A stretch of DNA of 39,562 nucleotides from contig JAOZJU010000012.1 in the NCBI GenBank assembly GCA_029935705.1, positions 1 to 39,562 of the forward strand, read 5' to 3'. The first letter of the stretch is position 1. Every line of letters begins with the position of its first letter. The DNA comes from Arcobacteraceae bacterium (GTDB lineage Bacteria > Campylobacterota > Campylobacteria > Campylobacterales > Arcobacteraceae). Below are positions 3,368 to 9,604 of the stretch, piece after piece. The translations under genes were made by a program, and so were the position numbers. The notes beneath the pieces are model-generated. The model was not told where the DNA came from and made no database searches. It worked only from the letters and a program-made list of their open reading frames with translations.

Positions 3368-3373
3368 TATAAT
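3368..3373 (+). promoter_or_regulatory. -10 box (TATAAT) of the lipid operon
   Basis: A perfect TATAAT lies 39 bases before the chosen start of the hydrolase lipoprotein gene, preceded by a T-rich stretch (CTTTTTGGTT) and no clear -35, the usual sigma70 promoter form in Campylobacterota. It is the only good promoter before the four overlapping genes that end at 9257. Confidence 0.5.
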
Positions 3374-3411
3374 TTCAAACGGATTTTATTTCCATAATCA
3401 AAAGGATGTGT

Positions 3412-4743
3412 ATGTTTAAGAAAATAATATTAGATATCATCAAGATATCTACAGCGGTGCTGATATTTACAGGATGTGGAGATATCAGCAATACTGGGGA
3501 AAATACAGTTGGCAATAATTTTGTCAAAGCTTTAGAGATAGATGACAAAGATGCCGCTACTAACTTAGGTTTTGTCAGAGCATTTGGGATAGATGCAAAT
3601 GCTACAACTGCATTTGGCTATAAAGTTTATAAGATAAATTATAAAACCAAAGATGAGTTTGATGCAGAAGTAGAAGCTTCAGGTGCATTGGTAGTGCCTA
3701 CAATCACTCAGGCTTTTTTAGATGCATACAAACAAGCATACAAAAAAGATTTTTCAATATCTTTGATAGCTGAAAATCATGGCACGATATTTGAGAACAA
3801 AGAAGCACCAACAAACGAGATAAATACTACAGCAAGTTCAAGTCATGTTTTAGCAGTGCTTATGACTGCAAAAGCTGGATTTGCTGTTGCTATGCCAGAT
3901 TATTTGGGTTATGGTGCTTCAAATGACAACTATCATCCATATATACTAAAAAAATCATCAGCAAAAGTATCCATAGATATGTTACGAGCTAGCACTAAGT
4001 TTATGATAGATAATGGCATATTGTTTAATGGTCAAGTGTATATCTCTGGATACTCAGAAGGTGGATATGTAGCTATGGCAATGGCACAAGAGATAGAAAA
4101 AAACTATTCATCTGATTTTAAACTAAAAGGTGTAGCTCCAATGGCTGGACCATACGATGTATCTTCATTGGGCAAAAAAGAGATAAAATCGACTTCAAAT
4201 ATGCAATATCCTGCATTTTTGGCATACTTGACCAACTCTTATACAAAAACTTATGATGATTTGGATCTAAGCGAAACTATAAACTACCCAGATATATCAA
4301 CATATAGAACTTTTTTTGATGGTAACTTGAGCGGACCTGCTATAAATGTATCTTTGGGTATGGGTGATGGGAATACCACTTTTGGGTTTCAAAGCCATAC
4401 TCCAGATGCATTATGGAAACAAACATTTATAGATAGTTATACAGATGATGGTAAATTTGCCACAAGGTTATCTCAAAACAATGTTTATGATTGGTCACCA
4501 AAAACTAAAATAAACTTAATTCACTGTATAGATGATGAGATTATTCCTATAAGTATGGCTCAAACTGCATATGATAAATTTGTAGAATATAAAGCAGATG
4601 TAAATATCACTAAGATCCCAACTGCTACCTTATCTCAGCAAGTGGATCCTGGACATCCATTTGTGCATGCAAACTGTGGTTCCACCGCATATGGTGTAGC
4701 TGTAACTTGGTTTGATGATATACGACAAGGGAGAATAAAATAA
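3412..4743 (+). CDS. Secreted alpha/beta-hydrolase lipoprotein (lipase-like)
   Basis: The start is set at the second ATG, which has AAAGG six bases upstream; an ATG two codons earlier is the alternative. The N-terminus is a lipoprotein signal with lipobox IFTGC, so the 443 aa product should be lipid-anchored. The fold is an alpha/beta hydrolase related to secreted lipases (LIP family). It has a DYLGYGAS oxyanion-side loop, nucleophile elbow GYSEGG with Ser215, likely Asp374 or Asp375 in HCIDDEIIP, and His415 in DPGHPFVH. The next two genes encode a FadL-type fatty acid porin and an acyl-CoA synthetase, so an ester lipid substrate is likely. It overlaps the porin gene by one base (TAATG). Confidence 0.85.
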   Translation: MFKKIILDIIKISTAVLIFTGCGDISNTGENTVGNNFVKALEIDDKDAATNLGFVRAFGIDANATTAFGYKVYKINYKTKDEFDAEVEASGALVVPTITQAFLDAYKQAYKKDFSISLIAENHGTIFENKEAPTNEINTTASSSHVLAVLMTAKAGFAVAMPDYLGYGASNDNYHPYILKKSSAKVSIDMLRASTKFMIDNGILFNGQVYISGYSEGGYVAMAMAQEIEKNYSSDFKLKGVAPMAGPYDVSSLGKKEIKSTSNMQYPAFLAYLTNSYTKTYDDLDLSETINYPDISTYRTFFDGNLSGPAINVSLGMGDGNTTFGFQSHTPDALWKQTFIDSYTDDGKFATRLSQNNVYDWSPKTKINLIHCIDDEIIPISMAQTAYDKFVEYKADVNITKIPTATLSQQVDPGHPFVHANCGSTAYGVAVTWFDDIRQGRIK

Positions 4744-5990
4744 TGAAAAATATAGAATTTAAAATATTTTTTTTGACAATAGTCACAAGCTCGATATTGT
4801 TTGCAAGTGGTTGGAGGCTTCCTCAGTCATCCTCAAAGTCGATCGCTTTAAGTGGAGCTTATGTTGCAAATGCAAATGGAGCAGATGCTACATACTACAA
4901 CCCTGCAAATATGAGTTTCAATAAAAATATCTCACAAGTTGAGTTTGGTCTTATAAATATATCTTTGCCAAGTATGAAATATACTGACAACAACAGCAGT
5001 GCAAATAAAGATGGCAAATCAGAAAAACAAAGCTCATTTTTACCAAGTATATTTTTCGTATCAAAAGATTATGGCGATAAAAATATTAGGTATGGTTTAT
5101 CTCTTAATATCCCTGGTGGTCTTACAAGAAAATGGAACAGTGCATATCAAAAAGCATATGCACAAGAGTTTAGTTTGAAAATAATTGAAATCAACCCAAC
5201 AATAGCTTATAAAGTTGCAGATAATTTTTCAATAGGTGGCGGTATAAGAGCTATCATAAGTAGTGGTGTAGTCAAAAGCGATGGCACAGATGCCGGCAAA
5301 CCAGCGATACGAGATATGGAGGGTGAGACTGTGGAGTATGGCTTCAATCTTGCAGTAGCATACAAGCCAAATGATTTTTCAAACTTATCAGCAACTTATA
5401 GGTCAAATATTGATCTAAAAGAGGAAGGAAATGCTAAACTTTATTTAAGTGGAACAAAAGTATATGATGGTGGTGCAAGTGTTACTGTGCCACTTCCTGC
5501 TGTATTGACAATAGCTTATGCATATGGTATCAATGAAAAAACGACAGTAGAGTTTGAGTTTGATAGAACATATTGGTCGGCATATGAGGATTTGGATTTT
5601 ACATACAAAAGTAGTATCCCAATAGCTCTCAAATCGGCATTTGATGACCCAAAAACAAGAGATTGGGAAGATACAAATGCTTTTCGTATTGGGTTGACAC
5701 ATAAATACAACAATAAACTAACGATGATGGCAGGGTTTTCAAAAGATGGACACCCCATACCTGAAAAAGCACTATCGTTTGAATCGCCAGATTATAACTC
5801 AAACACCATATCTTTTGGTGCTGATTATAACTTAGATGAAAGCAGTTCTTTAGGGTTTGGGTATCTATATAGTCAAAAAGATGATAGAACAGCAACAAAC
5901 ACAAACCCAGATGGAACCAAATATTTAGATGGCAAGATAAGCGATGTAAAAGCACACTTGTTGTCAGTCGCATATAGAATGAACTTCTGA
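4743..5990 (+). CDS. FadL/TodX (OmpP1) family outer-membrane transport protein
   Basis: This 415 aa beta-barrel protein has a signal peptide ending near FASG and the family hallmark N-terminus: GWRLPQSSSKSIALSGAYVA followed by ADATYYNPANMSF. The C-terminus ends in an aromatic residue (YRMNF), as expected for BAM-dependent insertion. FadL proteins let long-chain fatty acids or other hydrophobic compounds diffuse laterally through the outer membrane. It is sandwiched with one-base overlaps between a lipase-like gene and an acyl-CoA synthetase gene, which supports fatty acid as the substrate. Aromatic hydrocarbons (TodX/XylN-type) remain possible, but no catabolic oxygenase is seen here. Confidence 0.92.
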   Translation: MKNIEFKIFFLTIVTSSILFASGWRLPQSSSKSIALSGAYVANANGADATYYNPANMSFNKNISQVEFGLINISLPSMKYTDNNSSANKDGKSEKQSSFLPSIFFVSKDYGDKNIRYGLSLNIPGGLTRKWNSAYQKAYAQEFSLKIIEINPTIAYKVADNFSIGGGIRAIISSGVVKSDGTDAGKPAIRDMEGETVEYGFNLAVAYKPNDFSNLSATYRSNIDLKEEGNAKLYLSGTKVYDGGASVTVPLPAVLTIAYAYGINEKTTVEFEFDRTYWSAYEDLDFTYKSSIPIALKSAFDDPKTRDWEDTNAFRIGLTHKYNNKLTMMAGFSKDGHPIPEKALSFESPDYNSNTISFGADYNLDESSSLGFGYLYSQKDDRTATNTNPDGTKYLDGKISDVKAHLLSVAYRMNF

Positions 5991-7561
5991 TGAAACTAGA
6001 CTACAAATACAATAACTTATATGAACTTTTAGAAAAAAATAGTCTCCAAGCTCCTAAGAAGATTGTCATATATAGTGAAAGTGGCAAACTAACCAATATA
6101 GAACTACAAAACAAAGTGGATAGGTTAGCAAGATTTTTAGAAAATTCTGGTATAAAGTTTGGCGACAAAGTAGCTATAGTGATGTCAAATAGTCATGAGT
6201 TTGTGATATCGCTGTTTGCTATATGTAAGATAGGGGCGATAGCAGTACCTATAAACAACTTTTTAAAAAGTGAAGAGTTGGAGTATATCATAAAAGATTG
6301 TCAAGCAAAGCTTCTTGTTGCTAGCAATAGTTTTAAAAGTGAATTAAAAACAGTTTTGCAAAATACAACAGTATCCAAAATCATATGGACACAACATAAA
6401 GATGAGTTAGATGAGTTTAACTTTTGTTTTGATGAGATATTAAGCACCATTGTAGTGCATGAGCATATATCTCATAGTCCCGCTTTAAACGATACTGCGA
6501 TTATTATCTATACATCTGGAACCACTGGAAATCCAAAAGGTGCCATGCTTTCTTATAAAAATATATTTTCAAACTCAATAGCAGGTGGCGATAGATTTAA
6601 GCTAACCTCTAAAGATAGATTTGTAGTCTATTTGCCTATGTTTCACTCATTTACTTTAAGTGTTATGGTCATAGCTCCTATATATTTCAATGCCTCTATA
6701 GTATCGATTAAATCAATATTTCCGTTTTCAAATGTTTTAAAACAAGTTTTGTTTAAAAGAGTTACTATATTTTTAGGAGCACCACAGATATACAATGCCC
6801 TAAACAAAGCAAAAATTCCGTGGTATTTTATGTGGTTTAACAATATAAGACTTTTTGTAAGTGGTTCGGCACCTTTAAGCGAACAGGTTTTGATAGATTT
6901 TAACAAAAAGTTTAAAAGGTCAGTCATGATAGAGGGTTATGGTCTAAGCGAATGCTCACCTGCAGTATCATCTAATTTGTTTGACAAAAGAAAAACCTTG
7001 AGTGTTGGTGTGCCTTTTAAATCATTTCAAGTAAAAATTGTAGATGATGAACTTTTAGAAGTACCCAAAGGAGATGTAGGCGAGATAATAGTTTATGGGG
7101 ATTGTGTCATGCAAGGATACTACAACAACCCAACAGCCACAGACAATACCATAATAAACGGCTGGTTAAAAACTGGCGATTTGGGTTATGTAGATGATGA
7201 TGGTTTTATATATATCGTAGATAGAAAAAAAGATCTTATCATATCAAAAGGGATAAATGTATATCCAAGAGAGATAGAGGAGCTTATCATCAAAATAGAT
7301 GGCATAGATGCAGTTGCGGTCGTAGGCATAAAAGATGAAACCAAAGATGAAAGAATTGTAGCATTTGTAGAGCTCGAAAAAGAGAAAAAACACAAAATAA
7401 GCGAACACTCTATCAAAGAAGATATCAAACCACACTTAGCAAACTTCAAGATGCCAAAACATATCTATTTTATAGAGGAGTTGCCCAAAAATGCTGCTTC
7501 TAAAGTATTAAAGCGAAAACTAAAAGAGAATATAAAAATGTATATAGATGATGAAAAATAA
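5990..7561 (+). CDS. AMP-forming fatty acyl-CoA synthetase
   Basis: This 523 aa protein of the ANL adenylating superfamily uses ATP and CoA to activate a carboxylic acid. The P-loop-like motif YTSGTTGNPKG lies at 174-184. GYGLSE (A5), TGDLGYVDDDGF (A7), DRKKDLIISKGINVYPREIE (A8) and the C-terminal catalytic Lys in ASKVLKRKLK (A10) are all present, so the enzyme looks complete. Its size and the FadL-type neighbour favour a medium- or long-chain fatty acid. It starts in overlap with the porin stop and overlaps the next lipoprotein gene by 14 bases. No beta-oxidation gene is present in the window, so the acyl-CoA may feed lipid synthesis rather than catabolism. Confidence 0.92.
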   Translation: MKLDYKYNNLYELLEKNSLQAPKKIVIYSESGKLTNIELQNKVDRLARFLENSGIKFGDKVAIVMSNSHEFVISLFAICKIGAIAVPINNFLKSEELEYIIKDCQAKLLVASNSFKSELKTVLQNTTVSKIIWTQHKDELDEFNFCFDEILSTIVVHEHISHSPALNDTAIIIYTSGTTGNPKGAMLSYKNIFSNSIAGGDRFKLTSKDRFVVYLPMFHSFTLSVMVIAPIYFNASIVSIKSIFPFSNVLKQVLFKRVTIFLGAPQIYNALNKAKIPWYFMWFNNIRLFVSGSAPLSEQVLIDFNKKFKRSVMIEGYGLSECSPAVSSNLFDKRKTLSVGVPFKSFQVKIVDDELLEVPKGDVGEIIVYGDCVMQGYYNNPTATDNTIINGWLKTGDLGYVDDDGFIYIVDRKKDLIISKGINVYPREIEELIIKIDGIDAVAVVGIKDETKDERIVAFVELEKEKKHKISEHSIKEDIKPHLANFKMPKHIYFIEELPKNAASKVLKRKLKENIKMYIDDEK

Positions 7562-9257
7562 ATTTTTATATCTTATATTTACTTTTTTTGTGATAGTTGG
7601 TTTGGTATCTTGTGGCATAAGCGACAACAATATCTCCGCAAGCGTCGTAGATGCAAAGAAGATAGAAGAAAGCCCTGCTGATACGAGTGAGCCATATTAT
7701 GATAAAGAAACCACAAGAGTATTCAGAACAGGATCTCGTAGTATCAAAAGAGCTACAACAAGCTCTGGATTGAAAGCTGGTTTTTCAGATGACAATAAAC
7801 AGTTTAACTATTTTTTAAACTTTTTAAACAAATACAAAAATAACACCACAAGAAAATATCATGATATAGAAAATAAAGTTACACTAAGAGTGATGGATAA
7901 AAACCACAAAACTATAGCAAATGCTAAAGTGATAGACACAAACACACAAAAAGAGAGCTTGACATATAGCGACGGTAGTTTTCTCGTATATAGACCAACA
8001 AAACTAAAAATCACACACAAAAACAGCACAAAAACTATAACCATAGATGAAAATAGCAAAAAAGTTGTAGATGTGGTGCTAAACCAGGCTTTCAAACCAG
8101 TCGATCCAATACCTGTGGATATAGTCTTTGCTCTTGATACTACTGGAAGTATGAGCGAAGAGATAAGACGACTAAAAAAAACTATAGAGATAATCTATCT
8201 TAACCTTTCAAACCTAAAAACCAAGATAAACTTAAGGTTTGGTATGGTGCTATATAAAGATAGAAAAGATAAATATACTACTAAAATATCACCACTTACA
8301 GATGATTTAAAAAGTTTTCAAAAAGCACTAAATAAGGTTACAGCAAATGGCGGTGGCGATAGACCCGAAGATCTTGTGTCTGCTTTAAGAGATACAGTAT
8401 ATGATATAAAGTGGCAAAAAGATGGACTAAAAATAGTATTTGTCATAACCGATGCACCACCGCATATCCATTATCATGATCTAAAACCATATATGTTTTA
8501 TGCAGATGTAGCAAAACAAAAAGCTATCAAGCTTCACACTATAGGCACAGGTGGATTAGGTATTGATGGCGAATATGCATTAAGACAACTTTCACAATAC
8601 ACAAATGGCAAATATATATTTCTAACTTATGGCGAAAAAACACAAAGCGATGGAGGCAAAACTGGAAGTGTAAGCCACCACACAGGCTCAAACTTCTCAA
8701 CTGACAAGTTAGAAAAAATAGTCATAAAGTTTGTCAAAGAGGATATTGCAAAGATTGCTTCTGAGAAAATTGTAGATGATGAGTATTTTGAAGCTACAAA
8801 AATAGATAGCGAAAGCAAACAACAAACTACGACAAAACTATTTGATAAAGCATTTGCTCAAATAGTTGACTACTCATCTATCAAGATAGATAAAAATAGT
8901 TTGTCGCTGTTGCCTATCATCACTTCAAAATATGAAAAAGATAAAAAGACAAAGATAGATGCTGAGTATTTTTCACAACAACTGCTTCAAAGTGTCAAAA
9001 AAAACAAAAATTTTAAACTAATAGAACGAAACGATATGCAAAAGATTATGGATGAGATGAAGTTTCAAGATAGCGGTCTCGTAGATGAGAAAAAAGCTGT
9101 CAAGTTTGGCAAGATAGTTGGGGCTGAATTTTTACTAATAAGCAGAATATACAAGAAAAACAATAGATACGAACTATATATCAAACTTCTTCATCTATCA
9201 ACTGCTGAAGTGGTATCTGTAACAAAAGTTTATATAGACAAAAGATTAGGCATATAG
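7548..9257 (+). CDS. Lipoprotein with von Willebrand A and CsgG-like domains
   Basis: This 569 aa protein has a lipoprotein signal (lipobox LVSC, Cys at about residue 24). After a polar linker there is a small beta-sandwich resembling a carboxypeptidase regulatory-like domain (about 105-185; TIANAKVIDTNTQKE, SDGSF). A VWA domain follows at about 190-410 with MIDAS motif DTTGS at 197-201 and VITDAPPH. The C-terminal part, about 470-569, looks like a CsgG/TolB-N-type domain (LIERNDMQKIMDEMKFQDSG, GAEFLLISRIY). ATG codons at 7548 and 7551 are both possible. It overlaps the acyl-CoA synthetase gene, so it is co-translated with the lipid genes. A role in ligand binding or envelope assembly is inference; I do not know a named family with this order. 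Confidence 0.8.
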   Translation: MMKNKFLYLIFTFFVIVGLVSCGISDNNISASVVDAKKIEESPADTSEPYYDKETTRVFRTGSRSIKRATTSSGLKAGFSDDNKQFNYFLNFLNKYKNNTTRKYHDIENKVTLRVMDKNHKTIANAKVIDTNTQKESLTYSDGSFLVYRPTKLKITHKNSTKTITIDENSKKVVDVVLNQAFKPVDPIPVDIVFALDTTGSMSEEIRRLKKTIEIIYLNLSNLKTKINLRFGMVLYKDRKDKYTTKISPLTDDLKSFQKALNKVTANGGGDRPEDLVSALRDTVYDIKWQKDGLKIVFVITDAPPHIHYHDLKPYMFYADVAKQKAIKLHTIGTGGLGIDGEYALRQLSQYTNGKYIFLTYGEKTQSDGGKTGSVSHHTGSNFSTDKLEKIVIKFVKEDIAKIASEKIVDDEYFEATKIDSESKQQTTTKLFDKAFAQIVDYSSIKIDKNSLSLLPIITSKYEKDKKTKIDAEYFSQQLLQSVKKNKNFKLIERNDMQKIMDEMKFQDSGLVDEKKAVKFGKIVGAEFLLISRIYKKNNRYELYIKLLHLSTAEVVSVTKVYIDKRLGI

Positions 9258-9348
9258 CAAATATATAAGTGCTAAAATTTGTCGCTTAGAAAATTTGCCA
9301 TCTTTATTCAATACTCCTTATTGGTTATATTGTCAGCAAAACGATATA

Positions 9349-9543
9349 CTAAGTTATCTTTAGCAAGTTGCCTTTGATGAGGTTGCCATCTTTGCTACTT
9401 AGTGCCAATAGCTTAAGATAGTGGTAGTTTAGAAGCGATCTAATCTTTTTTACAAAAGCTTCCTCTTTTGGATGCTTAACTATTTAAATAGTCAAACAGC
9501 TATCTTTGATGATTTTATAGTCATTTGTGCTTATTGGTTTCAT
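9349..9543 (-). pseudogene. Possible decayed small gene with one internal stop
   Basis: On the minus strand an ATG at 9543 opens a frame (MKPISTNDYKIIKDSCLTI) that meets a TAA at 9484-9486. The same frame then continues without another stop (KHPKEEAFVKKIRSLLNYHY, then LKLLALSSKDGNL) to TAG at 9349. The 64-codon frame has a protein-like composition and one stop only, which suggests a recently broken gene or a gene fragment. I recognise no family. Chance is a real alternative at this length, and no ribosome-binding site is evident before the ATG. Confidence 0.3.
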
Positions 9544-9568
9544 TATACCAAACTAAAGTTAATTTGGA

Positions 9569-9574
9569 TATAAT
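9569..9574 (+). promoter_or_regulatory. -10 box (TATAAT) of typA
   Basis: A perfect TATAAT lies 30 bases before the TTG start of typA, inside an otherwise gene-free stretch. No convincing -35 is visible. Confidence 0.5.
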
Positions 9575-9604
9575 ATAAAAAACACAAAAACCCAAGGAAT
9601 AAAA

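Follow-up and report, generated by a model that had tools for sequence, protein, structure and literature searches.

Genes 1-3 of a four-gene cluster in an Arcobacteraceae genome, encoding a lipase, a FadL channel, and an acyl-CoA ligase, are best read as an operon of the Campylobacterales that would scavenge exogenous fatty acids and feed them into phospholipid, with the fourth gene as a dispensable neighbour (probability roughly 0.7). All four genes are located on the plus strand between positions 3412 and 9257 of the window, the whole analyzed stretch of 39,562 nucleotides, and successive genes overlap by 1, 1, and 14 bases. Gene 1 (3412..4743, 443 aa, with a second in-frame ATG at 3406) encodes a lipoprotein lipase/esterase of the alpha/beta hydrolase type (PF03583), gene 2 (4743..5990, 415 aa) a FadL/TodX outer-membrane channel (PF03349) with a signal peptide, and gene 3 (5990..7561, 523 aa) a FadD-like AMP-forming long-chain acyl-CoA ligase (PF00501 and PF13193). 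Gene 4 (7548..9257, 569 aa) encodes a lineage-specific lipoprotein with a von Willebrand factor A (VWA) domain and an LpoB/CsgG-like domain. An earlier note on this DNA had described four overlapping same-strand genes and had named a lipase, FadL, and an acyl-CoA synthetase; the layout is as described, and the family scans agreed with these names.

The same note had placed the genes behind a single TATAAT box. The hexamer is present upstream of gene 1 at 3368..3373 on the plus strand, where it was read from the sequence and is preceded by TG as in a possible extended -10 element. As a promoter for the four genes it is only plausible, since it has no -35 match and promoter-like sites occurred in the region at chance level in the sigma-70 scan (37 against 37.1 expected), which misses this site. 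At the other end of the cluster, a broken reading frame on the minus strand (MKPISTNDYKIIKDSCLTI*IVKHPKEEAFVKKIRSLLNYHYLKLLALSSKDGN...) occupies 9258-9604 between the VWA gene and typA and resembles what is left of a degraded gene.

The product of gene 1 matched the LIP (secretory lipase) family PF03583 with 50.8 bits (cut-off 23, E 2e-13). The lipobox Cys22 as well as Ser215 (within GYSEGG), Asp375, and His419 were invariant in an alignment of nine sequences, and GYSxGG was kept in all 89 lipase relatives. The structure model reached a mean pLDDT of 77.9, and its best folds in the PDB were Xanthomonas oryzae LipA and Legionella lpg1103, followed by Candida antarctica lipase A. The likeness to LIP-family lipases thus extends from the Pfam family to the fold, with about 22% identity to Xanthomonas LipA in the fold alignment, but unlike LipA and the Candida enzyme, gene 1 encodes a predicted lipoprotein and is situated within a fatty-acid operon. 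Gene 1 probably encodes a secreted, lipid-anchored lipase or esterase, its sequence being compatible with either.

The FadL product matched nearly the entire PF03349 profile (positions 3-421 of 421) with 177.8 bits (cut-off 29.7, E 3e-52). It carries NPA, which we take to be the N-terminal hatch motif of FadL, as YYNPANM, and 86 of 88 relatives have NPA close to their N terminus. The cut-off of the E. coli FadL equivalog was missed by gene 2 (66.1 vs. 585 bits). The ligase matched PF00501 and the C-terminal domain PF13193 (E 2e-82) and scored above the cut-off of the NCBIfam long-chain-fatty-acid--CoA ligase model PRK06187 (567.9 vs. 476 bits). It keeps the motifs of the adenylation P-loop, the signature, and the C-terminal catalytic lysine (YTSGTT, GWLKTGD, DRKKDLI, and SKVLKR), and patterns related to these were present in 46-51 of 51 relatives. 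The two families are those of the E. coli FadL-FadD pair, in which an outer-membrane FadL channel is likewise combined with an AMP-forming long-chain acyl-CoA ligase. In contrast to E. coli, fadL here adjoins the ligase gene and a lipase gene lies ahead of both; moreover, E. coli FadD feeds beta-oxidation, which is absent from the genome studied here.

The order of the first three genes recurred well outside this species. Among 80 relative genomes, lipase relatives were found in 11, ligase relatives in 17 (E 1e-60), and FadL relatives in 24 (E 1e-40). Lipase, FadL, and ligase followed each other in genome G031, a member of the same family with a ligase 77% identical to that of the window, and in G053 and G072. 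The lipase-FadL pair occurred in G033, G043, G054, and G073, and FadL-ligase without a lipase at nine loci, belonging to the congeners G001-G003 and to G051, G056, G057, G065, G067, and G070. Named genomes were scanned in addition with the lipase alignment, and the 80 loci retained are the best matches, thus a non-random sample that overlaps the first survey (e.g., G031, G033, and G043). Nearly all of them belong to Campylobacterota, including Sulfurimonas, Sulfurovum, Nitratifractor, Arcobacter, Sulfuricurvum, and Sulfurospirillum. FadL lay immediately downstream of the lipase in 66 of these best 80 loci, mostly within 60 bases, and was followed by the ligase in 34, while in 22 lipase-FadL loci no ligase gene adjoins the pair even though some sequence is available downstream. 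Because the order recurs in dozens of divergent genomes, it is well beyond chance, and from these comparisons of gene order lipase-FadL-ligase is a real and widespread unit of the Campylobacterales. The earlier note had counted an order unique to this genome as evidence against its reading; the four-gene order is indeed unique among the genomes examined, but the three-gene order is not. All three components are of familiar types, and no description of the conserved three-gene combination in Campylobacterota was found in the open-access papers searched.

Several variations surround this unit. In G033 and G043, both placed in the same family as the window, the lipase has one FadL gene upstream and two tandem FadL genes downstream (L047, 7907-13318; L048, 7755-13072); these FadLs are 39-55% identical to that of the window, and the ligase is absent nearby. 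Lipase relatives outside Campylobacterota were seen in Persephonella (L144) and Cocleimonas (L151), neither with an adjacent FadL, which may reflect exchange of genes between vent bacteria or contigs binned wrongly. A gene with an endonuclease IV-like start (KFVGAHVSASGG...) occurs beside the fatty-acid genes in several members of the order, directly adjoining them in L067 (5246-6088), L068 (5030-5872), L076 (10936-11784), and L050 (11543-12445) and one gene further away in L072 (8519-9376), so that the wider neighbourhood appears to be partly conserved as well.

In the ligase tree, the genus forms one clade (100/99) and G031, which bears the complete three-gene order, is its sister (100/100). 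Recent horizontal acquisition of the ligase is not supported by this tree, the genus being monophyletic with a family member as sister. The FadL tree is broadly consistent with this; the branching among the FadLs of the window, G031, and the sister species is weakly supported. Given the position of G031, the most straightforward account is vertical descent of a three-gene order that is old in the family, with loss of the lipase in the sister species.

Gene 4 showed a different pattern. Its C-terminal domain was matched by the profiles of both LpoB (TIGR02722) and CsgG lipoproteins; the Pfam LpoB domain scored 38.9 bits (cut-off 22.3, E 1e-9), and the CsgG match was partial (E 4e-8, profile positions 41-98 of 210), so that gene 4 lacks a match to the complete CsgG domain with its membrane-spanning part. 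The cut-off of the LpoB equivalog TIGR02722 was not reached either (42.6 vs. 110.55 bits). With higher scores for the LpoB models and so little of the CsgG profile covered, the domain named CsgG in the earlier note is better called LpoB/CsgG-like, whereas the VWA domain and the lipoprotein character stand. Unlike LpoB and CsgG, the protein has an attached VWA domain, whose MIDAS-type site (DxSxS/T-type) reads DTTGS (residues 197-201) and is unchanged across the three congeners, and it has a lipobox cysteine as in gene 1. The mean pLDDT of its structure model (52.8) was too low for a fold search. Elsewhere in the genome, CsgG-family matches are confined to contig C17, where three lipoprotein genes stand in tandem (L060, 7218-10333), two of the CsgG family and one LPP20-like.

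Full-length gene 4 was confined to this genus, where it occurred in three of four species (the two congener relatives being 61-64% identical), and all other matches across 399 genomes of the order covered the VWA part or little more. One of these (L158, G391) matches positions 73-361, i.e., the pre-VWA region and the VWA domain without the LpoB-like end; more distant proteins with the VWA part were seen at L159-L163 (G105, G153, G129, G117, and G061). Plasmid relatives among the records listed covered 21-35% of gene 4, over the VWA part. The VWA gene was found in none of the best 80 lipase loci and behind lipase-FadL-ligase in no other genome examined. In two of the three VWA-bearing congeners, FadL-ligase occurs without the lipase and the VWA gene lies at a separate place; in G001 and G002 it sits behind mqo, a glycosyltransferase gene, and an ABM-domain gene. 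The genome of the window has the same mqo-glycosyltransferase pair on contig C41 (89 and 78% identical) without the ABM or VWA gene, and the pair is followed by a gene read as glyceraldehyde-3-phosphate dehydrogenase-like. The VWA gene therefore changed place within the genus, in one direction or the other. From its absence from the best 80 lipase loci, its confinement to the genus, and its other placement in the sister species, gene 4 is probably a lineage-specific neighbour or passenger outside the pathway, although its 14-base overlap with the ligase gene argues that it may be co-transcribed with genes 1-3.

The possible fates of the acyl chains were narrowed by the gene content of the assembly (1.28 Mb, 99.56% complete), in which absences rest on family searches. 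No match to the enoyl-CoA hydratase family ECH_1 was found in the genome, with controls positive in 13 of 14, and no thiolase match lay above the cut-off, the single match below it being FabH. From these hydratase and thiolase searches, beta-oxidation was rejected as a sink, in agreement with what had been supposed before. Storage lipid had been offered as a second destination; for polyhydroxyalkanoate (PHA) it was not supported, as PhaC_N had no match in the genome. Present are PlsX, adjoining FabH with AcpS near, and one PlsC-type acyltransferase, which fits the suggestion of membrane lipid as a sink. PlsX, FabH, AcpS, and an acetyl-CoA synthetase were named by reading their sequences, not by family scans; the last is a second AMP-binding protein, rejected as a fatty-acid ligase since it looks acetyl-CoA synthetase-like in its length (645 aa) and its start. 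With ECH_1, thiolase, and PhaC_N absent but a PlsC-type acyltransferase present, incorporation into phospholipid is most likely, ahead of beta-oxidation or PHA.

Other readings of the cluster were weighed against these results. The earlier note had proposed that the four genes function as a single system whose VWA lipoprotein captures lipid particles or organises its envelope portion. The shared strand, the tight overlap of the ligase gene and gene 4, and the lipobox cysteine common to genes 1 and 4 would suggest this, but the distribution and placement of the VWA gene described above leave such a role unsupported and make it very unlikely. Tight gene overlap alone does not establish membership in a pathway. 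A more specific version, in which the genus recruited the VWA and LpoB-like lipoprotein into a membrane-only lipid-salvage operon and thereby coupled uptake to envelope growth, is a long shot. It is also rather improbable that the substrate is not a fatty acid, i.e., that a FadL/TodX channel imports an aromatic acid, a hydrocarbon, or the like, the hydrolase cuts another ester, and the ligase makes the corresponding CoA thioester. FadL-family channels transport hydrocarbons and aromatics as well, TodX shares the Pfam family of FadL, and the best solved relatives of the ligase include malonyl-CoA and 4-coumarate-CoA ligases, several of the nearest using malonate or aromatic acids. Against this stand the PRK06187 score of the ligase, the lipase fold and family of gene 1, the lack of ECH-type enzymes in the genome, and the fact that no degradation genes were recognised adjoining the operon in the window.

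The remaining alternative alters only the carrier step of the preferred reading. If the ligase were an acyl-ACP synthetase of the AasS/AasN type, exogenous acids would enter FASII and PlsX/PlsY directly, which would suit a genome with PlsX, FabH, and AcpS and without beta-oxidation. There is a parallel in Chlamydia, which also lacks beta-oxidation and uses acyl-ACP made by AasC as acyl donor (PMC6167442). As in the scheme proposed here, the Chlamydia AasC/LpaT and the AasS/AasN systems turn exogenous acids into thioesters for membrane lipid, but AasC, AasS, and AasN are acyl-ACP synthetases, whereas the ligase of the window is closer to CoA ligases, and the present unit also differs from those systems in its dedicated lipase and FadL. 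Vibrio AasS structures fell outside the best 60 solved relatives of the ligase, many of which are CoA ligases. The gate residue of AasS is a tryptophan (W230) four positions past a conserved histidine (PMC11271967), and the ligases compared here have Phe, Leu, or Met at this position as judged by spacing only. Overall resemblance favours CoA over ACP, and an acyl-ACP synthetase is considered unlikely, if clearly worth keeping in mind.

The earlier suggestion that the lipoprotein lipase, FadL, and the acyl-CoA ligase make up a scavenging unit is supported by the families and by the conserved order, and for the scheme that follows we infer substrates, transport direction, acyl carrier, fate, and co-transcription. 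At the outer membrane, the secreted, lipid-anchored LIP-family lipase or esterase would hydrolyse ester lipids, and FadL would let the freed fatty acids through to the periplasm. In the cytoplasm, the AMP-forming ligase would then trap them as acyl thioesters, more likely acyl-CoA than acyl-ACP. With neither beta-oxidation nor PHA synthase in the genome, the chains would go to phospholipid, at least to the sn-2 position via PlsC. The gene for the VWA and LpoB/CsgG-like lipoprotein would have settled behind the operon in this species without being required by the pathway. These findings suggest that membrane-lipid salvage is common, though seldom described, among Campylobacterota of vents and sulfidic habitats, where it would provide a cheap source of acyl chains to cells that otherwise make all their fatty acids.
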